NCBI GenBank assembly: GCA_037974665.1
Contig: CM075770.1
Coordinates: 5,964,501-6,028,500, forward strand
Length of the DNA: 64,000 nucleotides
Source: Ehretia macrophylla
Taxonomy: Eukaryota > Streptophyta > Magnoliopsida > Boraginales > Ehretiaceae
Direction: 5' to 3'
A program made the position numbers and the translations under genes. The notes beneath the pieces are model-generated. The model did not search any database, was not told where the DNA came from, and saw nothing but the letters and a program-made list of their open reading frames with translations. Within the stretch, counting starts at the first letter, position 1; the number at the start of each line of letters is the position of its first letter. Of this stretch, positions 8,593-63,787 are shown one piece after another.

Positions 8593-9255
8593 TCAGAACT
8601 CCGGAAGCTCCCTCATGCTACCCAATGTGGAAGATGACATAGAGTTTCTCATGTTAGGCATCATCAATAATGGATCCGAGTAACTATAAAATGGTGGATT
8701 TGTGCAGAAGAAATCTGTCGAACTCGAATTGTAAAACGGCATGCCATTAAAGCAAGGAGTTGGTGGATCAAAAATCTGAGGAGCATAACAAGAATTAACC
8801 TGACCATCTCCAACACATGAACTGCCATTCTCATCTGTGATCACAGAAGATGACTCATTATCATCATTGCATGATGCACTTTTATTAGGGTTTTTGTTAT
8901 CAATTTCACCATCTTTATCATTTACCGGCTCGGATTTGAGTTCAGGAGGATCATGATCATCCTCGGGCGGCCGCGAAAAGCCGGTGAGCTTTTGCACCAA
9001 TGCCATGAAATCTTTAGGGTTTGTGTGGATGATTTTTGGAGAATGTGTGTAGATGATCACAGGGTGACGCTGCGGCTGAGGCGCCGGGGGCGTGTTGGCC
9101 GCCACGCCACCATTGATCACCAGTGAGGAAGATGTTGAAGATGAGGATGAGGATTGTGATGATTTCTTGATGAAATGTGAGTCCTTGTTGATCTTCAAAG
9201 GAGATGGAGTCATGACATTGATTTCCTTGTTTGCATGATTTTGTGTAGGGCTCAT
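8593..9255 (-). CDS. VQ20: VQ-motif protein, VQ20-like
   Basis: A single-exon gene of 220 residues starting at the ATG at 9255, as is usual for plant VQ genes. The diagnostic VQ motif FMALVQKLTG lies near residues 83-92, preceded by the block HPVIIYTHSPKIIHTNPKDF. This motif binds the DNA-binding domain of group I and IIc WRKY factors in the nucleus, and VQ proteins act as WRKY cofactors in defence and development. The N-terminus is serine-rich (residues 32-45). The region after the motif is acidic and low in complexity, and the C-terminus has tyrosine- and phenylalanine-rich patches. The start is supported by an in-frame ATG with a TATA box about 205 bp upstream. Similarity to Arabidopsis VQ20 is recalled, not computed; VQ8 is an alternative. 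A Mutator-type MITE lies directly upstream of the core promoter. Confidence 0.88.
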   Translation of the reverse strand: MSPTQNHANKEINVMTPSPLKINKDSHFIKKSSQSSSSSSTSSSLVINGGVAANTPPAPQPQRHPVIIYTHSPKIIHTNPKDFMALVQKLTGFSRPPEDDHDPPELKSEPVNDKDGEIDNKNPNKSASCNDDNESSSVITDENGSSCVGDGQVNSCYAPQIFDPPTPCFNGMPFYNSSSTDFFCTNPPFYSYSDPLLMMPNMRNSMSSSTLGSMRELPEF

Positions 9256-9457
9256 GGTAAGGATTTGAAATAAACCTAATTAATTACACTACAAAAAAAC
9301 AAAAACAAAAATTTTTCACTATTTGTCGTGTATATATGAATATAGATGTAGATCTATGTATATTTGTATGTAGATGAGGTGGCTTTGTTAGTTTGTGCTC
9401 TCCTTAATGTGATGGGCTTTGATTGGTGAAGGTAAGAGGAACAAAAGATGTGTGTGT

Positions 9458-19148: not shown

Positions 19149-22098
19149 TCACCAAATACCGGAGTCCAAATTGTATGGTTGCTCCTCTGGTTGTTGCTGC
19201 AGATTTTGATCCAAAACCCTTGAAGAAGAAGCTGCAAAACTTGAAGTAATATCATTGCCCAACTGAGTATTATTAATCCCTTGTTGCAACAATGAGTAAT
19301 CATTAATATTCATCACTTGATCTCTAGGCAGCTGATAATTTCTAAGTTGCAATGCTCTAAGGAGCCAAGAATTCACAGACAGATTAGAGTTGAGTAAGCT
19401 AGCAGAAGGCCAAGTAAGTGATGCAAGAGCACTTGCTGTCTGGAGGTTCATGTTATCGACATTGTTGTAGTTTTGCATAGATAGATTACTGATGGCGCTT
19501 AATGGAGTTCCAATTTGATCACAGCTTGTATTTTGTAGTTCAATGTCACCCAACTCATTCATGATTGTGTTGGTATCACATGGAGACTCCATGGATTGTG
19601 GTGAGGATGATGTTTGTTGCGGTTTCTTCACTGTAGTGCTTTTCTGGAAGACTCGGCAAACTACCCACTCCTCCTGAACAACATAATAATAAGTAGACAT
19701 TGTATGTAATTAGTGAGAAAAATAATGTAATTGGTTCAAGTGAGAAATGCTAGCTATAGTCATTAACGAGGATGAATCTAGAATTCTTATATTAGTTGGG
19801 GTGAAATACACAATTTAATAAACATATATGAAATTGTTTTTTCATCTGGGATTAAATTAATTTGCTAAATTAAAAGTACCTTAAAAATATGCACATATTT
19901 TCGAATGAATATTAGGTTGAGCGGGGGCTATGGCTCTGCCTCTGGTCATTGATTTCTAATGGTCGCTTGCTATCCATTGCACATGACACGTTCTAAACGC
20001 AGGGTGGATTTAGAATATTTTTTCATGGGAGTTACAACCCATAATTTGACAACTATATGATGATATATATATATTGTTAAAGTTGGAGCCATTAATATTT
20101 TGTACTAAACATACATAGATAGATATTTAAAAAAATCTTACGGAGGATAGATATTTAAAAAATTAAGTTTATGAGCTACGTTAGTGAACTCTACGGTCTT
20201 CATTGACACCAAACTGCATCTGCATGCCCCCTACTTTCATGCATCCACATAAATGAGCATCCTATAATATCAGCATCGCATCGGGTGACAAGAACAAAAT
20301 GGCTCCGGATGCGAGTAAAGCAAGCAATTGACTAATCAAACATAGAATTATCAAAATGTCCAAGGACATAAAAATGTTTACCTTTACAGGCTTGTAAGCA
20401 AGCTTCGATTCTAGCCTATATTCATGCATTACCCAGTTGGTTTTTTCACCCTTGGGAGCTCTACCTCTGTAAAACACCAATGTTTTCTTCATCCCAACCA
20501 AGACACCACCACGAAAAATCTCCTTATCCTTGCCTGTTGTCTTCCAATATCCTGCTTCAGTGGCTCGATTGGTGCGCAGGCCGGTTGGATACTTCCGATC
20601 CCTCAAATTGAAGAAGTACCATTCTTTTTCCCCCATAGAGGCTTTGGCTGTAAAAAATTAATCCAATCAATAATCGCCATATCACTATAATATTTTAACT
20701 CTTTTACAATACTCCAATTGAACAATGAAAAAAAAATTGTTGCCCTATGTTTCTTCCACAATGATTTTGTTTAAACTAAAATTTTTGCAACGGTTAAGAT
20801 TTTTCTATCAAATTTTATTAATAATTATTTATAAGACTGCACGGTTTTTTAAACTTTTGTTTATTATTAAAAAATATCGTTGCAGTACAGAATGTGCAAG
20901 GGGACATTATACAATAGATAAAAAAAAAAATGTGCTAGTGTATATATGAAAATTGGAGACTCTTAGCTGGATTATTGCAAGTGTTTGACCTTCGTTTTGA
21001 GTTGAATAAAAGTTGCTCAATATTAACTAGATGGTGACATTTGCGATAATACGCGTATCTAAACACAGATTATGATCATGCCGACACCTTAAGAATCTGG
21101 AAGAATGCTAGATTTTGTTTGGTCATTGCTAACAACTATGTCTCAATATACCCATCACTTAATCCTTTTCTTTTGTTTTCTTTTTTTGTTTTCAAAAATA
21201 TGTAAATTAAGAGAAAAGATTGCAACTGAGTCTTAAGAAAATATTTGCTCCCATAATTACAATGTGCATGAATTAGAAGCGAGCTAAATTGTATGTACCA
21301 GCATGTTAGAAGGAAAGCATACCAACTAGAGATGTCAAAAGGACTTCATCCAATAGTATGAGCATTTTTATATGTCATTCGGGTGATACTGCAAATTCAT
21401 CTTATTTTATGTGGTAAAAGTTCTTATTATAAAAATAAATATTTAGCATTCAATACATAAACTTTGAACTTACAAAAAAGGGTAGTAAAGTATCGATCAC
21501 CGAATAATATAAAGGATTATTCTGAAAGAAAATAGAAAAATAAAAGAGCGAGAGATAGCAAAGAGACCATTAACCAGAAATACATTAAGTGGCAAGTGCA
21601 GAGAAAGGGTATTTCTTCAATCTTCTTTTCTTTTTCCTTATGTTGGAGAGGTGGTTTTTTTCTTTTTTTCTTTTTTTGTTTGGGGGGGGTAGGGGTATTT
21701 CATTTGGGATCTTCTTTTGCGTAGAAAGCTAGAATCTTTTGATCCAAAGGAAAGAAAGCATGGAGTTTTAATAGTTCACTAAGAATACTTTTTAAAGGAT
21801 TACGTGGTACAAATTAGTATTAGAGAGGAACACTTCAAGTATTACATGAGATACAACCATCAGAAAATACAACGATAACCAGGAAAGTAACCAAGAAAGT
21901 AAAATAATACATTGATATTGCAAGTATCAAACTAGCTATACCTGGAAGATCCCAAGGCTCGCACTTGTTGATATCAACGTCAACGATAGCTCTTGAAGTG
22001 AAACTAAAATCGGAAACCTTGTTCGTAAGGTAGTCAGTGATGAGCTCTTCATCAGTAGGATGAAACCTGAACCCTGGAGGAAGATTATGCTCCTCCAT
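19149..22098 (-). CDS. NAC058: NAC transcription factor, NAC058-like
   Basis: Three exons (22098-21942, 20647-20382 and 19673-19149) give 315 residues with the intron phases normal for NAC genes. The NAC domain spans residues 5-155. Subdomain A is [19 protein letters not shown], followed by [20 protein letters not shown], then [20 protein letters not shown] with [10 protein letters not shown] (the DNA-contacting part), [19 protein letters not shown] with [11 protein letters not shown], and [12 protein letters not shown]. The C-terminal 160 residues are asparagine-, glutamine- and serine-rich, as in NAC activation regions, and end with LDSGIW. The [15 protein letters not shown] text and the terminal DSxIW-like motif match Arabidopsis NAC058 (314 residues) as recalled. 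NAC058-type factors are nuclear regulators reported in leaf senescence, suberin and branching contexts. No miR164 site is seen, unlike CUC/NAC100-type relatives. Intron 2 holds two MITE-like relics and intron 1 a dispersed repeat. Confidence 0.92.
20000..20130. repeat. MITE-like relic in NAC intron 2
   Basis: A CAGGGTGGATTTAG left end, like the hAT-type MITE end at 6839, is followed by AT-rich text. A second relic of the same style lies just before it, at about 19770-19950. The right ends and target duplications were not resolved. Confidence 0.35.
20680..20910. repeat. Dispersed AT-rich repeat, copy 2 (NAC intron 1)
   Basis: It shares the TTATTAATAATTATTTATAAGA block and a TTGCAACGGTTAAG-like block with the copy near 6560-7165, and related text with that near 35970-36430. 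It lies wholly within intron 1 of the NAC gene, just upstream of exon 2, and has no coding capacity. Confidence 0.45.
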
Positions 22099-28975: not shown

Positions 28976-31740
28976 GATAGTCGATTTTTTTTTCTTGGCA
29001 GTTCATAAAACCGCTGCCTATGCTATTCGTGACTCCAACGTAGGGCGCTAGTATAACTTAAGCGGCGATTAAAAAATTACGCGCTATAGCCAAAATAGCC
29101 ATTGGCTTTAAGTTATTTTTTCAGAGAAATGTTATATATCATTTTATTTTCATCATTCATTTATAACTTTTTATGTGGATATCTCTGCATAATAGACAAT
29201 AAATAAATGATAAAAATAAAATAATATATAATAATGCTCGCGTTTTAGCTTCACTTGAACAATCAAATTATTGAAACAAAACATTTTTTTCAGAGTCGCT
29301 AAGGTCAATACAAGCATGTCCAAGGTCAATATCAGAAAGAATAGTTCACAAGATAGCAACAAGACACAAAAAATCTTCAGAGTTTCGACACAATCCATAT
29401 CATGAATTGGAGGCTGCTTATGTCGCACAGATTTGTCTAACATGGGAAGCATTGAATTGGAATTTCAAGTATTTTCAGTGTCTGAGAGATTCGAGACGCC
29501 AAGATGATCCTGGATGCCCTGCTCATGTAGCTCAACAGTTTCAGCAATTCTTGGTTCTTTTGCAGAGATACATTGAGAATGAGCCTTATGAGTATGGTAG
29601 AAGACCAGAGGTATATGCAAGGATGAGAAGCTTGGCACCGAAATTGCTTCAAGTCCCGGAATATCGAGGTATAGCAAAATCTAATTTCTACATTTACTTG
29701 AATGAAGTCGAATAGGGTAAATTATCATTAACAGGGTCGGACGTACATTTGAGGTAACAGGGCTGTAACTCTCACTGATTTACTTGAATGAAATGAAGTT
29801 GAAATGGGTAAATTACCATTAGCATGGGCGAATGTAATTTGGGATAACAAGGGTTGTAACCCCTACTAACACCAATTTTTTAAAAAAATGTGTAGGTATT
29901 TTTAAGATTTTCTTTGTTTGGAAAATTAATTAGTGTCCTATGAAAGAAAAAAAAAATTGCATATGAGTATCAACTGTGCAGACACATAGCCTTCACTAAA
30001 ACAATATCTTAAACCCACCAAGACTACCAGCTATATATAGAAAGTGAGTGCCAACTTAGTATGAAAATCTTTTTTTTTTCTTTTTGGTTATTTGGCTTAT
30101 AGGTAATTCGTTCATGGGATGAAGCTGTCCCAATAGTAGATTATGCATCACTTTTTCAGATACTAGTAGCTAAAAATGATTGCCAACTTAGTCATTAAGT
30201 AATTGATTTTATGGATTCTTTGCTTTATAAGTAGATAGCATTATAGACCAAAAGAAAGTAGCCAGATAGCATAATGAAGGGCGTAAATTTTTCATAATCA
30301 AACTGTGCGTCAATAATGTTTAAGTGATAATTCAGTTACATTATCTAATTATATTCATTGACCTAAATTATTTTTACTGAAAATAAATTATTAATTTATC
30401 AACATTAATCTCTACGTTACGAAAAAATTTAAATTCGTGGCCAAAGACTCTTTTTATTTGTCAATAAAGACGGGCCCCATTGAGTGTATATTCTGCTACC
30501 TGACTAGCCAAAATCCACTAGAATTATTGTCTATACTTGTGACTTTACTAAAAGCCTGCTTTAGTTAAAGTAGTATCTGCATGAACTTACATGTGTGTCT
30601 TGCTGTTTCATGCTAGATTCTGACGAGGAGAAAAAAGAGGAAGGTTTCTCATCAAGAATAGCTTCAGATTCATTTCTTGTAATAATGGAAGAAGCAATCA
30701 GAACATTCATGAATTTCCTTAAAGCAGACAAGGAAAATCGATGCCAAATATTGGCAGCTTTCTTTAGGAAAAATCGTAGAGGTTCAGCTGATCCAACTCT
30801 TCTCTTCCTGTTAAAGAAAATAAATAAAAAGGTAAGCTTATCACGTCTTAATTTCTCTTAATTGTTTTCAATTATTTTAAATTTGGGAAAAAAAAAAACC
30901 TATGTGTATTTTGTGGTATACTCTGCTAATTATTCCTCCTTTTAGAATAAACAAATAGAGCATTGTTATATATTATTTTTTTATATGTCGTTTAACTCTT
31001 ATTATTTCTCACGAATTGCTTTTATATAGGTCTTTGAGTCGTCACTAAATTGATTACTCATTCTCATCTTGATACTTGCTTGTATTGACAAATGTTTATG
31101 TGCTTTTTTATTGATGAAAATTACTATTCTAAAGTGATCACTCTTATAATGTTATCTGAACTACATGGTTAGCAAATCAAATAAATTTATGTGTTATTAT
31201 ATATCTATATATTAGGATATATATATTGTGAAAATTCTTTATTTTCTTTATAAGAGAAAAAGTTAATTATAAGAATTTATGATAATGGCGGATATTGTCT
31301 GGGGCGAAGGTAAATTATAAAAAAATTTATCCACCTTCCACTAGCGTTGGATTCGAGTTGAGTAATTAAGAAGGCAAGCGCCTCTAAGTCTGTCTGCTCT
31401 ATTGTCATTCCTAATTACGAAAGGGATAAAATGCCTTTTTCTTTAATTTTGAATCTAACCATTTAATTACTCTGAAAATTAAACTATGCAGAAAAAAATG
31501 AGGCTCAAAGATCTTCGACGCTCGAGGAAATGCTTAAGAAAAAGGAAGTTAAAGGAAGTGAACGAGATGGAGATTTTGATGGCCCTAATAGACCTTAAAG
31601 TGGTATCTAGGGTTTTGAGAATGACTGAATTGAATGATGAACAATTGCATTGGTGCGAAGACAAGATGAGCAAAGTGAGAATTTCTGATGGGAAACTACA
31701 CAGAGATTCTTCACCACTTTTCTTTCCTGCACACTGCTGA
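27502..31740 (+). CDS. DUF1666 family protein, function unknown
   Basis: Exons 27502-27644, 27929-28368, 28529-28873, 29294-29668, 30617-30831 and 31492-31740 join through GT-AG introns in consistent phase into 588 residues. Residues 13-40 are strongly hydrophobic ([20 protein letters not shown]) and probably form one membrane segment or signal anchor. A long acidic, low-complexity stretch follows, beginning [13 protein letters not shown]. The conserved DUF1666 part runs from about residue 310 to the end and includes [43 protein letters not shown]-like [19 protein letters not shown] and [20 protein letters not shown], ending with a lysine/arginine-rich segment ([15 protein letters not shown]). 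The biochemical role of the family is not known. It sits in the same order relative to ESP1 and kinesin genes as Arabidopsis At1g73850 (from memory). The start in exon 1 is the first ATG that gives the hydrophobic leader; an internal start is possible. Confidence 0.85.
28925..29113 (+). mobile_element. Possible CACTA-type end in DUF1666 intron 3
   Basis: CACTACAAAAAAAAAA at 28925 resembles the terminus of plant CACTA (En/Spm) elements. It is followed by a TA/GA microsatellite and then a GC-richer block with ACCGCTGCCTATGC and AAGCGGCGATTAAAAAATT text, reminiscent of CACTA subterminal repeats. No opposite end or 3-bp target duplication was found, so only a fragment is claimed. Confidence 0.3.
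29732..30050. repeat. MITE-like relics in DUF1666 intron 4
   Basis: Two successive partly repeated segments (CAGGGTCGGACGTACATTTG near 29732 and GGGCGAATGTAATTTGGGAT near 29826) share adjoining text with each other (TTACTTGAATGAA, GGGTAAATTA). They resemble diverged members of the GGCGGAT-ended family seen elsewhere in the window. The boundaries are uncertain. Confidence 0.3.
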
Positions 31741-46111: not shown

Positions 46112-47525
46112 TCAACAACATCCTTAAGTGAGGCGCTGCACTCATAATTTTATCAATTGGTGGCAAGAACTAAAAGCTGGACAAACTCCTAGCTTTCATT
46201 TGCGGGTAAGCTTACTCTTGCTAAATCTATTCTTTATAGCATCTATAACTTCTGGAGTAGCATGTTTATCCTTTCTAAATAAGTTATCAAAAAGGTTCAG
46301 CAAAGCCTTTCAACCTTCTTGTGGGGTAGTAAGGAGGATTCTAGAGTTATGCCTAAAGTTGCTTGGAAAATCATTTGTCGGCCTATGGATGAAGGAGGAT
46401 TGGGACTCAAGAACCTTGAAGATGTTAATAAAGTAGCTGTGCTTAAACAACTTTGGCATGCTTATTCTGACAGGAAGTCTCTTTGGGGTTCTTGGGTTAA
46501 CATTGTGCTTCTAAAAAACAAATTCATTTGGAGTGTTGATATTCCTAAGGATGCCTCATGGTCTTGGAGGAAAATTCTGGGTGTTCGGGATTTGGCTTTT
46601 CAGTTTATCAGACATCAAATTGGCAATGGTGATAATTCCTTCCTCTGGTGGGATTGGTGGCATCCAAATGGTTGGTTAAGGAATGTGGTCAATTTACTTG
46701 TCATCTATGCTTCTCAGCTGGGGCTACAAAGTAAGGTTAAAGAAATTATCCGCAATGACAATTGGTACTGGCCAAGGAACTTGACAAATCTCAATACTGG
46801 GCTCCTTCCACCCTTGGGTCAAGATGATATTATCTATTGAACTCTTGGGTCCATTGGTAAATTCTCTACTGCTTTAACTTGGGAGGCCATAAGAGATAAA
46901 CATGAGAAGGTGAAATGGGATTATCTTCTTTGGAGGAATCCTTGTATTCCTAAACGTAGTTTCTGCTCTTGGTTAGCAATCCTTGATAGATTGCCAACAA
47001 AAGCCAGACTAATTAGTTGGGGTTTTCAGATTAATGATCAATGTGAACTTTGTCATATGGGGTTGGAAAAGCGTGATCACATCTTCTTTGAATGTACATT
47101 TAGTAGAAGAGTCTGGCAAATGTGTGCTAAATTTGCAATGACTACAGTTGGAAGTATTCGCTAGGATCAAACTCTTCACTACATCATTGAGAGTTGCAAA
47201 AAGAAGATTATTAAAGTAGCCATTCTTAAAATCGTCTTTCCTACTTGCATCTTTTATCTATGGAGAGAACGCAATTGTAGACTGTTTGGCAATGGAACTT
47301 CAACAAAAGACCAACTTCTTGCTATGATTGAAGAGATGATTAGACTGAAAATGCTTTCAGGTAACAAATTTAAGGACAATTCATGTAATTGTTCCCTTTG
47401 TACATATTGGAAGATTAGCGCTATACTCGAATAGATCCTTTTTGTATAAGCTTCTTTTATAAATTGTACTCCACAGTTTTTGATGTTGAATGAAACTTCT
47501 TACTGACTTAGCCAAAATAAAAATT
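46112..47525 (+). mobile_element. 5'-truncated LINE relic with zf-RVT domain
   Basis: The plus strand encodes the C-terminal part of an L1-type LINE reverse transcriptase: FAGKLTLAKSILYSIYNFW, MPKVAWKIICRPMDEGGLG with LKNLEDVNKVAVLKQLWHAY, then a zf-RVT region (WDYLLWRNPCIPKRSFCSWL, CELCHMGLEKRDHIFFECTF) with the expected Cys/His pattern. Several stops and shifts interrupt the frame. The 3' part continues to an A-rich end near 47525. It is truncated and inactive. Confidence 0.8.
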
Positions 47526-52228: not shown

Positions 52229-53954
52229 TTAGTAGGTCGCAGGCTTGGAGGCAATGAAACTGATGCACTGCACTTGACGAACATTGTCGAATCCAATGAT
52301 TCTAACGAAGGACTCAGGGTACTCCTTGTTGCACTCCTGAAGCTCCTTCAACACTTGTGATGAGTCGGTGCAGCCAAACATGGGCAGCTTCCACATGGTC
52401 CAGTAGCGTCCATCGTAGTACCCTGGTGATCTGTGGTGCTCACGGTACACAAATCCGGTCTACAATCACAGATATACGAGTAACTAGTAAGATGACCACG
52501 TCAAACTAGGAAGAGATGACGTGAACTTTATAGAGACAACAACTTGCATGCGGAAAGAAGATATATATATATATATATATATATATGTATCTTTTGGAAC
52601 GTCTAATCTATGTAAAATAGTGTTTACTGTCACATTTTTTACAAAATAAGTACTTATATTAGTCTCTTGATAATGTGATTAAAAAGTTGAATGAATTGGT
52701 TTTATATTATACATTTTTAGAGTATTTACATTACACACGTATATCGCACGGGTATAAAATTAATAATAAAGGAAAGGAAAGAGAATTACGTCAACGGAGA
52801 ATTCAAGGCAGGGAATCCATCCACTGCGGATAAGGTAATCAATTTCCTTGGCCAATTGCTCCTGGCTAAGGTCGGGAAGGTAAGAGAGGGTTTCGAACTT
52901 CTTCTTGCCCAATGGAGGCCAAACCTGCAAGGAAAAACATAAGTTTCAAAATTCTCATTTCTCGTTGTACAACTAGTGAACTTGGTTATCTAACTCACGA
53001 GAATTTATAAAATCACCCTTCAGGACCTTTATACTAGTTTAAAACCAATTTAATGGCACCTGAGTTAATTATTTGTCCTACATTATTAAGTTACCATTTC
53101 ATTTTTAAAAACTTAAGTTGTGACAGGTGGGATTTGTTTTTTAATCTTGTACATGAATATATATAATTTTTTTTGTTTTGATGAATGGGTGGCAAGGAAA
53201 TTTAAATCCTTGAGTGCTAGGTAGTTACCAGTTATAATACCATATTAAGTTACTACTCTATGTAAAAGTTTAAACGGGTGGAGAGAAGTTTATTCTTTAT
53301 ATTTATTTATTCTCCAAGTTAGAAAGAATGGTATGGCAAACAATTTTGTGCAGTCAAAATTCTGAAGCACTAACCAAAAAAGGAAGAAGAATTTTTGCAG
53401 TTTACTAATAAAATATATTACATTGTGAAATGTTAATGTCTACTAATTATAATGTTGCTCCTTTTACTACATAAATTATCAGCCTATTTGTGCTTCATAA
53501 TATTCAAATTCCCTAGAATGCTAATTATAATTCTTTTATTTTGCTTGGTTGATTAAGATATAAGTAACAATTAATGCCTATTCTATAGTGTACATTTGTA
53601 CAATTATCGTGTTGTCTATATTTTAGTTTTTACGTTTTCACAAGCTACTAGTTATGTAACATTAGTTAACGTGTGCTAATAAGTGTAGAAGATATTACAT
53701 TATTAGAGTACGATAGAGAATAACTAATTTATTCGTCAAATTAAAAGAGGATAAATATAAAAAATCGTAAATACCTGCATGCATTGGACTCGGCCACCGT
53801 TGTTAGCAACGGAGGTGATGTCGGCGCTCTTGCGGGTGACAGGGAAGGCTGAGGCAGATTTCAAGCCATTGAAAGGTGCCACCATGGTAGCCTGAGCAGG
53901 GCTAGCACGGTTGATGGAAGCAACAGCAGAGGTTGAGACAATGGAGGAAGCCAT
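52229..53954 (-). CDS. RBCS: Rubisco small subunit precursor
   Basis: Three exons (53954-53775, 52924-52790 and 52459-52229) give 181 residues with GT-AG introns in phase 0. Residues 1-57 are the chloroplast transit peptide ([13 protein letters not shown]... with [15 protein letters not shown]), cleaved before MQVWPP at the usual [13 protein letters not shown] junction. The mature subunit carries the family blocks [55 protein letters not shown] and [19 protein letters not shown]. It assembles with the plastid-encoded large subunit in the L8S8 enzyme of the Calvin cycle. The length and the two intron positions are typical of dicot RBCS genes; intron 1 is long (850 bp). No defect is visible. 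The upstream sequence holds a TATA box and two I-boxes, so light regulation is expected. Confidence 0.97.
52563..52586. repeat. AT microsatellite in RBCS intron 2
   Basis: About 12 TA units inside the second RBCS intron. Confidence 0.85.
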
Positions 53955-54056
53955 TTTTGCTTGCTCTCTTGTTGCAATACTAGTTACTTCACTAGTCCAC
54001 AACTCAATAACAACACTTAATAGTGTGATGAAGCCTAAGCCTAGCCTACCTCGTCT

Positions 54057-54062
54057 TATATA
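54057..54062 (-). promoter_or_regulatory. TATA box of RBCS
   Basis: The minus strand reads GTATATAAG about 105 bp upstream of the ATG at 53954, predicting a 5' leader of about 70 bases. Confidence 0.7.
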
Positions 54063-54236
54063 CAAAAAAATTTCACAACATTGCTGTTTTCTAATTGGCT
54101 TTCGTGGACCCATCCAACGTACGGTTACATGAAGATCTAGTGAAGTCTTGGTGATTTTTGATCGTTGGATTTCCTGTCCAATGACATTTCAATTTTTTGA
54201 CCACATATTATTGGAAGGCTAAGATTGGATGGTTGC

Positions 54237-58256: not shown

Positions 58257-61200
58257 CTATCTTCTGGGAGTCTTGATTGATAAGTTGCTTCCGCTGGCAG
58301 ATTTTTTCAAACCTGGAAATGGAACACCAGAAAATTGATAAGAGATCGGATCGTTTCATGAGTCATGAATATTGATATATAAAGTAAACGTTCGATTACT
58401 GCATACCAGTTGAAGCCTTTGGAGAACCCCATGGTGATTTTGGCAGGGGCCGAGAAGTCCTGGATACCATCTTTGGTCTGCAAAAAGTTAATTCATAGAA
58501 GAGATCAAACTAATGTAAGCATTTTCATTTCATCATTCAAAAACGTGCACCAACACTTTTGAAAAATTCATTAATAGGCTAAATCTGTAGCCCAAAACCA
58601 GCGAATTTGACTTCAACAGGTGAGGGAATGATAAAGGGGCTCATAGACTGGGCGACAATGATGGCATATTAGAGCAATAGGTTAGTTATTCCTCTGAAGA
58701 ATGTAATCTGAAAGCAGCACTAAGATCTAGAGATAAGAAGAAAAACTAACTTATCAATCTTTTCTGATGTATTTTCTCCTTCTTGAACTGGAAGATTGCT
58801 TTCTGCGGAGTCATCAGTTTCTGTTCCCACAGAAAGACCGCTATCAGTTATATCACTCAGTCTCTCTTCATTTTCTGCATTGCTGAATCTTAAGATTGCA
58901 GCATCTGCAGCAAAATTATGAACAAGATTCCCTCCAGCGGTATTTGACTGCTGGGGGAATTCTTTCGGGTGTCTAATATCATAGCTAGAGTTCTGGGAAC
59001 TAGCTACTGAATGCTTATCACTATCCGAATCGTTGTCTTGATCTGATGCTGCTTTTTCAGTAAGTCCAGAGCCTTTTCCGCCAGACAATTTTAAGCTTCG
59101 TTCAGGAGTTCCATCTATGGAACCTATTCTTGGAGAGGAAGATGAAGAACCATACCTTAACGAGTTTGTTACATGTTTCTCACCATTGACTCCAGGGTAT
59201 ACATTTTTGAGATCCTTATGCAGCTGCAATCTCTCAATCTCCTCATCTTTCTTGGCAATTTTGTCCTTGAGTGATGCAACCTACAGTTTAAAAAGGAAAA
59301 AGGATCAGAAGGGAATGAAAGATGTGATTTGGAAACTAAAGGACTTATTAACAACCACGTGTAAGACATCTGTTTCTGATCTTTGAAATAACTAAAAACC
59401 TAAAAACGTCGAGCATATTCCACCTGATAACAATTAAGAGTAAATTTTTCCATCTTGAAAGATTCTGATAACAATAAAAATACAGTTCAAATTCAAAGAT
59501 TAGAAATACGAAAACAGAGAATCTTATGAGTTCTTTCATGCTTATACAGTTTTACTCCCTATACAGCTATCTGACATCAAGCTTGAGTTCTTGAAGTTAT
59601 ATCAGCACATTGATTGTATTTCAAATTGTTTTATTATCAACTGATTTGAAGCACTGTGTCGAAACAAAAATATCATATTACGACATTCAAAACTCTTGTA
59701 CAAAGAAGAAATGACAGTCATCAACATAATAAGGGGAATAGACGGGTACAAAGAGCACCTGTTCCATCAAGTCCCTGACGTCCCTGCCATCTTTGCTACT
59801 CTTAGCAGCACCAAGCTCAACTCCAGATACACGTTCAGCAAATTTCAAGGTACTCATGGATTCGGAATATGAAGCAACATCAGGATTGAGTTGCACAAAC
59901 ATAAGGGTTTTTGCTTGACCTCCTGTATCACCAGGGGCAGAAGCTAGTTAAGTTACATATTTGCAAAAAGTTGGATTCATGCTAACTAAGAGAAGCAGCA
60001 AATCCAAAGATACACTTTCTAGATTGTTCAAAGATTTTACCATTTTCATAATCTATGCCACGTCTCAGCATTTATCTAAGCCTTCTAAGCAATTACAAAA
60101 TAATTTTGACTAATTAAAACCCTGGAGGCTGGAGTTAATGGATATGCTTGGCTAGTACAAAGATAAAGATAAAAATGTGATAAGAGGTGCACAAAAACAT
60201 AGTATAGAGCATAAATTGCGATAACCACAGTAATCTATCACAAATCAACACGAGAATAAACAAAGAAATGTTGTAAGACATTCCAAATCGATATTGACCA
60301 TTTCCATATTTTATAGCAGAAAAGTGAAATATGAATATGCATTAGCATACAAAATACGCATGCATTTATTGCAAAACTTATTTTTTGTTTAGCTTTCATA
60401 TCCTTAAGACAATAAATTTTTAGTATCTCAAACTTAACATGAAAATATAGAAGAGTGAGTACCCAAAGAGCTCTGGAGAACTTGAGTAAGCTTGCTGTTC
60501 CTGTATGGTACATGAGGACTTTTTTGTGCCAAAGCAAATATAACATCTCCAAGGGCAGATAAAGATTTGTTGATATGTTGTGCTTCTTTAAGTCTGTCAC
60601 CAGTTACTTCAGAGCGATCTACTCTTTCACTTCCGGCAAGATCTACAAGATGAAGACTACTCCGCATAGTAGAACCAGTCTTCAGATCGGTTCCACGGAT
60701 ATGAATGGTTACAACACTGTGCAGGTGCATTCAAATTACTATTTCATGTTAACACAAACAATTCATAGATCAAATCACAAAAGACTTAGATATAGTACCT
60801 ATGTGATCGACTGCTTCTTTCATTTAAGGCCGTGGAACCTTTAGCTCTATTCTTTAGCCCAATATCCATTAGTTCCAAGACATCAGAGGTTGAGTTGACT
60901 GGAAACATGCTAGCATCTGGAACAGCTAAACCATTGGGTTGGCTGGTAGATAATATCCCAAGTGTGTGCAAATTAAGGAAGACAAAAAGATAATATAACT
61001 GTGATTAATTTGGTCGTTGAATGTTTAAAGAATGAAAAACAAGGAAAAATTAGAAGTTCATGGATTGAATGTCAATATCTTTAGGCTCAAAAACCATAAA
61101 GTATCATAATAAGTCGAATATATGTCAAATGACAGAACTTATGATCAAATCAAGGCTAGCAGAAAGTTTATTCATCAGTAGACACATCATCAAAACAGAT

Positions 61201-63787
61201 AAGAATAACGGAAACAGGTAAGGATATTTTTTCTGCGAACTATTGCTTGATAGTAGATCACGGACTTGTTCATTATAAATTTCTACCATCTGAACCCCGA
61301 TTTCATATGTAAAGGAGCTCTCCCTAGACTGAGATATGTGGAAAAGATCATTTAAAGCTCGATAATTGATACCCCATTGCTCTTCCGTTGCTCCGTCAGG
61401 GCCCATCTGGAGGACCATATTACTCCATTTCAGTGGTTTGTCAAAAGTACATTAAGAAGAGCATGTTAATATGCAAAAGTTCATACCATGGTATAGGTTT
61501 TCCCTGAACCAGTCTGGCCATAAGCAAAAATACAAACATTGTATCCATCCAAAACTGATTGTATCAAAGGTTGTATATCTGAAAATACTTCAGCTGCAAA
61601 GATGGAACAGAATTTTGAAGGCTTAGATCACTTCCATACTAAGGGATGCAAGTCGGAACTAGGAACCCTGATCTGAACAGCAGTTGCTGCCAGAGAAATC
61701 TATTTCATAGAAGAGTAAGAGAACACAAAATTGAAAGCAAAACCTTGTGTTGCTGGTAGGCCGTACACCTTGTTGAACTTGAATGAACGACGCGCTTCCT
61801 TTCCTTGTTTGGAAGGATTTACAACAATTAGCTCTCCATTTTCACCTATGTATTCGATGGTTGACTGCTTTTCTGTCTGCCCGGGAAGAAATGGCCTTAT
61901 CCGACAATACACTCTTATGTTTCCTACCAAAAGAAATTTTGAGAATATAAATAATAAAGTTGATTCATTCTTCAAAAAATTGAAAATACTCTGAAAGAGG
62001 TAGTACCTTTTAGCTCTTGGACCTCATTATGTAGTTTCCTATTTTCAGCAAGGACAGCATAATAGTTTTGAGCTGCATCTTGCAATGCTTTAACTTGAAG
62101 CCCTAAAATGAAGAGTTGACTTTTAGTAGAATTTGTGAAATGATCCTAAATTTATTATGAATTTTATTTCTTCCTCTACTGATTTTTCTTAAGGAATAAT
62201 CTTGGACGTAAATTGACGTAAGCGATTGAACTCCTCCAAAAAGCTCTTTTCTGTTTTCACAACTTCTTGTCTGATTGATTGAGAAGCAAACCTCAACTCC
62301 TGAACAATTTCACCATATAAGTTAAAAACAATGGATGGATCTTGGAATATCAATGACGTATATAAGTATTACTAAAGCATACACGTAGTGCACCAAGCTG
62401 GAATTCTGTGAATATCTGGTAGATGTGCTCTTTCTTGCTCCATCGCTCAGATTTTGACTCAGAAAAAGTGTCAAGCTCCTTTACTCTCTTGCTTGATTCT
62501 GTCAGGAGGTTGGCGACTTCCTTCAGCCTCTCCTCTAGCTCTTGTTGGGCTCCTCTAGCTTCTTTTTCCAACTGCAAGCAACGCTGTTCATACGTCTTCT
62601 TAGCTATATCTAGCTCTTGCTTAAGAGCGGCAATTTCTTGATTACTGTCGTGATTCTTTTTCATCAATTTAACCATATCCTGGTTATCAACTCTCTTTTT
62701 GTCTTCCACATTGGTCTTCTTGCTCTGCAATATAATTTTCAGCAAAAGAAAAAATGAAAACTAGTGAACCTCAATATTGACAAAATATTACCTAATGAGT
62801 TATCATCCAATCACTATTCCGTTTCTGAGACAATGAAATCTACCGTGCACAGCTTACACATATATCGTAAGCTCATCAATGGATAGACAATAACAAAATA
62901 TATTTCCAAACAATTGAAGTTCAAGGACATATTCATGCTGCCTCATCCGCAAAAAAACAATTACTTTCAGGTGGAAAGAACATAATGAGGCTTGAGTACC
63001 TTGATTTGCTGAAGCTGGTTCATAACAATCTGGTAGAGAAAACAAAATTTTATGTATGAGAGAACTAAATCTCGAGATAGTTTAGTATATGCAATAAGTA
63101 TATTACTTGGAAATCTGTACCTGTGTCTCTTCATTAGTCCCTGTCGCTAGAGCTTCAAGAACTTTGATCCTTGACTGATACTTCTCCTCTCGAGCCTTGA
63201 AAAGATTGTTTTGCTGCAAGTTTACATAGGAAGATGGATGAGGCTATGAGTTGGCATTTGTAGGAACCATCATGTCTTACTACTTTTAATTAGTATTACC
63301 GTTCTTAAATGTTCTGCTTGAGTAGATATCCGCCTCTCAATCTCCTGCACAACTTTCCTCAGCAGGCATGCCACACGCTGATAAACGGAAGCAGTTAAAT
63401 TAGTCAAACCCCATCTCTACGATTGTCTATATGTATAACATTGTATAAAATACATTTATTTTACAGAAGTTTGGCTCTTGTCATACATAAGGTATTTCTC
63501 CATTTTTCCGTTCGATACTTTCATCTAGAATTCCATTGACAACGCTTATAAGTGACTGAGTGGGGGCACTCTGCAGAAAACAGAAACTGAAATCATTATA
63601 GATATCCTGGAATCTGGTTGAGTAGGGTACACGGACAAGAAAGAGCCTTGAGAATTTACATCAAAACTGTTTGATTTCATCATCTCGGAAATCTTTGCAG
63701 CAGAAAGATCCGAATAGCATCCTTGTTTTAGCTGAAATACTTCATGGAACTTATTCCCGACATGATGTAGTAGTGCAGCTGACGGCT
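58257..63787 (-). CDS. KIN-14 family kinesin, C-terminal 878 residues (5' part outside window)
   Basis: Seventeen exons are visible in gene order: 63787-63660, 63570-63487, 63377-63300, 63213-63121, 63029-63000, 62724-62383, 62299-62218, 62102-62007, 61923-61744, 61593-61487, 61406-61228, 60963-60799, 60716-60463, 59922-59759, 59280-58751, 58477-58407 and 58312-58257. All phases agree, and every intron is GT-AG except the one at 61227-60964 (AT-AC). Coiled coil comes first (residues ~130-300, [37 protein letters not shown]). It runs into the KIN-14 neck [14 protein letters not shown], the mark of minus-end-directed motors. The motor holds the P-loop GQTGSGKT, switch [10 protein letters not shown], switch [10 protein letters not shown] and [13 protein letters not shown] serine-rich tail ends in [12 protein letters not shown]. 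It walks on microtubules; plant relatives with an N-terminal calponin-homology domain bind actin, but that domain would lie beyond 64000. Arabidopsis At1g73860/At1g18410 are the likely relatives. Confidence 0.93.
60964..61227 (-). other. U12-type AT-AC intron in the kinesin motor domain
   Basis: On the gene strand the intron begins ATATCCTTAC right after CAGAAAAA, matching the U12 donor ATATCCTT. It ends TTCCTTAATTTGCACAC, with the U12 branch-site motif TTCCTTAAT at 60980-60972, about 9-10 bases before the AC acceptor. No AG lies in the last 30 bases before the exon. Only this splice restores the frame: AAA AA plus A CTT GGG gives [18 protein letters not shown], as in related kinesins. It is 264 bp long and would be removed by the minor spliceosome. 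Confidence 0.9.

Follow-up and report, generated by a model that had tools for sequence, protein, structure and literature searches.

A predicted U12-type AT-AC intron in the motor domain of a KCH-type kinesin-14 gene of Ehretia macrophylla and its counterparts among paralogues

In one survey of plant genomes AT-AC splice sites make up 0.06% on average (121 species; PMC6310983; papers given by PMC number are cited throughout from excerpts), and minor introns with A-type termini are reported to form a separately regulated subset for human CENATAC (PMC8280824) and, as cited in PMC11039992, for DROL1 in Arabidopsis. KCH kinesins are described as land-plant-specific proteins that link microtubules to actin; one member marks the preprophase band, and a role of the group in the pollen tube has been proposed (PMC5852081, PMC7921805). 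Here we analyze a 64,000-nucleotide stretch of Ehretia macrophylla DNA (GCA_037974665.1, contig CM075770.1, positions 5,964,501 to 6,028,500 of the forward strand; hereafter the window), in which a preliminary description had placed an AT-AC intron of the minor spliceosome within the motor domain of a KIN-14 kinesin. Weighing splice signals, paralogues, and competing splice models, we put a probability of about 0.96 on the reading that this is a U12-type AT-AC intron in a land-plant KCH kinesin-14, predicted to be removed by the minor spliceosome.

The intron, its splice signals, and its gene

The principal features, all on the minus strand, are as follows.

58257..63787, minus strand: kinesin-14 (KCH-type) gene, 17 exons in the window separated by one AT-AC and 15 GT-AG introns; its 5' portion, which holds the calponin-homology (CH) domain, extends past the window
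61228..61406, minus strand: upstream coding exon, its last codon (K) split by the intron
60964..61227, minus strand: predicted U12-type AT-AC intron, 264 nucleotides (nt), phase 2
61220..61227, minus strand: donor ATATCCTT, 8/8 against the U12 consensus
60972..60980, minus strand: branch site TTCCTTAAT, 9/9 against the U12 consensus, with 60973 or 60974 as the branch A
60962..60967, minus strand: tandem ACACAC at the acceptor, its middle AC being the frame-keeping acceptor
60799..60963, minus strand: downstream coding exon, opening with the split codon (K)

The coordinates first proposed for the intron are exact, from the perfect donor and branch site to the AC end. Matches were scored against the U12 consensus (donor RTATCCTT, branch site TTCCTTRAY); a similar one is given in PMC2846911. 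The acceptor AC occupies 60965..60964, so that the intron ends in ...TTGCACAC before the exon resumes with ACTTGGG, and its last base lies 9 nt from the second candidate branch A (60973) and 10 nt from the first (60974). Junction 61228/60963 keeps the reading frame, with NSSQKK encoded directly 5' of the splice. Among the 16 modelled introns of the gene this is the only one that is not GT-AG; in the other 15 the best donor match is 7/8 and the best branch-site match, scanned over the last 40 nt, is 7/9, and the two fall in different introns. When the full signature is defined as donor, branch site, an AC at 9-16 nt, and a spacing of 60-2000 nt between donor and branch A, it occurs once on the minus strand of the window, at the frame-keeping exon junction; of 600 strands of 64 kb simulated by a third-order Markov model of window composition, 15 contain it by chance. 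As to the polypyrimidine tract that U12-type introns lack, pyrimidines account for 0.75 of the last 20 bases ahead of the terminal dinucleotide in the AT-AC intron, inside the 0.50-0.80 spread of the GT-AG introns of the gene, the branch site being itself rich in pyrimidines. Elsewhere in the same gene, the intron at 62300..62382 (minus strand) has a donor, GTATGCTT, that matches the U12 consensus at 7/8, with a best branch match of 6/9; having no U12 branch site, it is probably U2-type.

The 17-exon model, running from 63787 to 58257, yields a single open frame of 878 residues plus stop, in which Pfam recognizes a kinesin motor domain (PF00225, 370.9 bits) and no family in the 307 residues preceding it. 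When the motor was compared with solved structures, the six top rows among the best 60 of 153 matches were KIFC3, Kar3, AGR253Wp, KCBP, KIFC1, and again Kar3, AGR253Wp being presumably a Kar3 relative, and the points at which the structure alignments start place a neck just N-terminal to the motor, as in kinesin-14 proteins. Exons for a CH domain lie just upstream of the window (L039), where one exon frame reaches 27.0 bits against PF00307 (cut-off 26) and three pieces joined by eye reach 51.8 bits. Because this domain adjoins the window and the motor is of kinesin-14 type, the gene is, by its predicted product, a KCH-type kinesin-14, a group to which minus-end motility and actin binding belong.

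Paralogues and competing splice models

A search of the 1.58-Gb genome (20 contigs) with 212 motor residues gave ten matches over the exon 3' of the intron, eight of them at 53-96% identity: the window gene and loci on contigs 1, 3, 9, 10, 13, 16, and 17. In all eight genes the intron opens with ATATCC, C thus standing at positions +5 and +6 of the donor, and its phase-2 position is identical, a single base ahead of the L codon of LGI, LDI, LEI, or LET; seven have the full donor ATATCCTT and the eighth, L016, has ATATCCTC. Their introns end in AC in seven cases and in AA in one (L020), the branch A stands 9-11 nt from the intron end, and the branch-site match is 9/9 in L012, L015, and L016 and 8/9 in L013 and L017. 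The joined exons read KKLGI, KRLGI, RRLDI, KRLEI, or TKLET. Intron interiors show 69-78% identity in six pairwise comparisons under lenient gapped alignment and fall within the shuffled range in all three pairs given shuffles (100 each); being no closer than shuffled sequence, they reveal no clear kinship, and the signals are nonetheless kept. Since the seven closest sister genes found in the genome carry the same type of intron at the same place, the signal is a genuine and ancient one, not a coincidental match, and the sequence together with these paralogues supports the proposal of a U12-type intron inside a KIN-14 motor. A CH domain is present also in paralogues L014-L017 and was not found in the sequence stretches examined of L013, L019, and L020. 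The last of these (contig 16, 1685000-1693000, minus strand) is a KCH paralogue whose homologous U12 intron has the termini AT-AA, the commonest noncanonical type of minor intron in plants (PMC10639083).

Several observations nevertheless weigh against the U12-type reading. The branch-site match falls to 7/9 in L019, L014, and L020; at the intron site, two more distant kinesins, L001 and L002 (34% and 36% identity), show uninterrupted coding across it; and a U4atac search found no match in the genome, its control genomes being silent too. At the locus itself, only the middle one of the three overlapping ACs at 60962..60967 keeps the frame, and the third, which breaks it, lies 11-12 nt from the branch site and is thereby nearer the optimum of 11-13 nt (PMC3584512) than the chosen AC at 9-10 nt. 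The likeliest of the rival readings is that the U12 splice is used with a leaky choice among the three ACs, part of the transcripts being frameshifted and the ACACAC serving to dampen expression. The flanking ACs would indeed lead to stops after 478 and 482 of the 878 residues (20 or 24 past NEQVRDLL), and a retained intron to a stop after 499 residues, 41 past the same motif, so that all three products would end inside the motor. The ACACAC is common to the window gene, L013, and L019, and TTGCACACACTTGGG is identical in L012, L013, and L019; this conservation, however, may just reflect common origin together with coding constraint on ACTTGGG, and the five other paralogues lack ACACAC at the acceptor. 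We regard leaky acceptor choice as improbable.

The remaining points against U12-type splicing belong to conventional splice sites. The preliminary description was mistaken in holding that the frame survives with none of the GT-AG alternatives: in the vicinity of the site, 79 GT/GC-AG pairs give a frame open as far as the final stop, and seven of these (five GT-AG, two GC-AG) retain a specific 11-residue stretch of the protein. The plainest is the following.

60943..61215, minus strand: best in-frame GT-AG alternative (rejected), giving YPYL in place of LGILSTS

Were this major-spliceosome (U2-type) intron used instead, the protein would read QKKYPYLQPNGL, and its YPYLQPNGL contains the very residues that had been expected from mis-modelling of the locus. 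Besides keeping the frame, the alternative has an acceptor that, at 8.6, ties with the gene's best real one, and a donor that is weak (-0.5) yet above the worst real one (-4.0). It gives up LGILSTS and falls 5.2 bits short in Pfam kinesin score, the AT-AC protein reaching 370.9 bits vs. 365.7, 358.7, and 358.1 for the three alternative proteins scored (margins 5.2, 12.2, and 12.8). One of the three was also compared with solved structures, and there the first five kinesin-14 chains shown favor the AT-AC protein over the 61215/60943 product by 0.7-4.7 bits (5wde, 284.8 vs. 284.1; 3t0q, 256.0 vs. 251.3), 4h1g, a CaKar3 fusion, separates the two hardly at all (213.1 vs. 213.2), and several kinesin-1, -2, and -3 chains slightly favor the alternative (1goj, 212.2 vs. 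214.6; 7a3z, 236.0 vs. 237.2; 7eob, 202.8 vs. 204.7). Scores as mixed as these mean that protein fit alone would not settle the splice model. The paralogues decide instead: the two nearest, L013 and L019, have no AG where the alternative would require one, and AT-AC or AT-AA signals are kept in all eight genes, on which grounds the GT/GC-AG models were rejected and 61215/60943 appears very unlikely. The AT-AC model is thus preferred because the paralogues conserve its signals, not because alternatives are lacking. Least probable of all is removal of the AT-AC termini by the major spliceosome, for although U2-type AT-AC introns exist (PMC2831892, PMC8280824), those in sodium channel genes invariably carry G at +5 (PMC2831892), a position occupied here by C, and the perfect U12 branch site and the C at +5/+6 in all eight genes speak against it.

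History of the site and the genomic setting

Beyond the eight genes, the site was read in the named loci only, among 160 kinesin matches in the genome. In three more distant kinesin-14 genes, L018, L021, and L023, the identical phase-2 position is occupied by a GT-AG intron, with the junctions SSSKK-LEIKQ, VPPKR-LEVKQ, and NQNAKK-LEIKQ, respectively. In L032-L036, which we take to be kinesin-13 genes, and in L022 a phase-2 GT-AG intron lies about one codon away (in L022 as one of three candidate splices), and the KCBP-like L037 and L038 have no intron there and, by eye, read through. The eight U12 genes form one clade with support 99/98 in a tree of 16 motor rows, built from query-anchored rows with the columns around the intron site left out. 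It took 16 of the 23 loci with motor matches and left out L001, L003, L006, L008 (the same gene as L021), L024, L037, and L038; its long rows L002 and L007 are flagged as unsure. Judged from these genes, introns have long occupied the phase-2 site, with a U12-type one in a single kinesin-14 clade and U2-type ones in its relatives, and the U12 intron, present in all eight clade genes found in the genome, is on that account older than the duplications that produced them. Burge et al. reportedly described conversion of U12 to U2 introns at conserved positions. Such a change is considered likelier than the reverse, yet rarer for AT-AC than for GT-AG introns of the U12 type (PMC2831892).

The genome also holds matches to small nuclear RNAs (snRNAs) of the minor spliceosome, namely two to U11, one to U12, and seven to U6atac. 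The plant upstream sequence element (USE) reads RTCCCACATCG, and a USE-like box at -66 to -78 together with a TATA at about -30 precedes U11 L009, U12 L011, and U6atac L025, the box of L025 having one mismatch. By eye, AAGGG in the 5' region of U11 and AAGGA in that of U6atac could pair with UCCUU of the donor, and GUAAGGAA in the 5' region of U12 could pair with the branch-site bases UUCCUUA(A)U. The second U11 copy (L010, contig 18) and U6atac L026 look like pseudogenes, because both USE-like box and TATA are absent; among the U6atac copies L025-L031 this check covered L025 and L026.

In the mechanism that we propose, U11 and then U6atac would recognize the donor ATATCCTT, U12 would recognize the branch site TTCCTTAAT, and the minor spliceosome would join 61228 to 60963, thereby retaining the residues that match, in alignment, the LEI strand found in other kinesin-14 motors; a missed splice site would presumably mean loss of the motor. 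Splicing at the AT-AC sites and dependence on the minor spliceosome are what we infer from the U12 signals at the locus together with the U11, U12, and U6atac genes in the genome.

Rfam and tRNA scans of the whole window gave no matches, and the following other exons and frames were seen.

53736-54188, minus strand: Rubisco small-subunit gene exon (PF12338, 77.8 bits), a near neighbor of the kinesin gene
46283-46840, plus strand: open frame with no Pfam match at 0.01, similar by eye to the final part of a non-LTR (long terminal repeat) reverse transcriptase
29275-29715, plus strand: DUF1666 gene exon (Pfam)
20262-20657, minus strand: NAC/NAM-domain gene exon (Pfam)
8593-9279, minus strand: VQ-motif gene exon (Pfam)

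Significance and comparison with known systems

In the open-licence literature on kinesins and U12 introns, DROL1, KCH, and kinesin-14 gene structure, none of the titles and abstract openings listed describes this intron, supplements being outside that scope, and U12 intron databases may well include it already. A search for plant relatives in viral_contigs and genome_contigs gave 2 and 19 pattern matches, respectively, none of them confirmed. Correct KCH gene models would need AT-AC and AT-AA splice sites, and the eight motor-family genes that share such an intron offer a defined target set for minor-spliceosome mutants, just as the kinesin-14 family offers a clean contrast of U12 vs. U2 at one homologous site. 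More tentatively, an A-type (AT-AC/AT-AA) U12 intron could mark the whole KCH clade, so that the land-plant-specific KCH motors as a group would need the AT-AC arm (DROL1/CENATAC) of minor splicing, a possibility that we consider less likely than not. If true, it would couple minor-spliceosome capacity to the preprophase band and to pollen-tube transport, and sister kinesin-14 genes would escape via their U2-type intron at the same site.

The predicted mechanism of the intron is in itself ordinary, and its added interest comes from the fact that every one of the eight clade genes found in this genome has it, and from the U2-type counterpart in their relatives. Like described U12-type AT-AC introns, it combines the RTATCCTT donor and the TTCCTTRAY branch site with a short branch-to-acceptor distance, an AC end, and a nonzero phase; its branch distance of 9-10 nt is slightly below the 11-13 nt optimum (PMC3584512). 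With the AT-AN introns that need CENATAC in human and DROL1 in Arabidopsis it likewise shares A-type termini and U12 signals, and by analogy regulation of the CENATAC/DROL1 type may extend to KCH genes. The gene agrees with the plant KCH kinesins, OsKCH1/2 and the seven of Arabidopsis, in joining a CH domain to an internal kinesin motor (PMC5852081, PMC7921805). Finally, as in known cases of U12-to-U2 conversion (PMC2831892), a single phase-2 site holds a U12-type intron in one clade of kinesin-14 genes and a GT-AG intron in another, but the two states are seen here among paralogues of a single genome.

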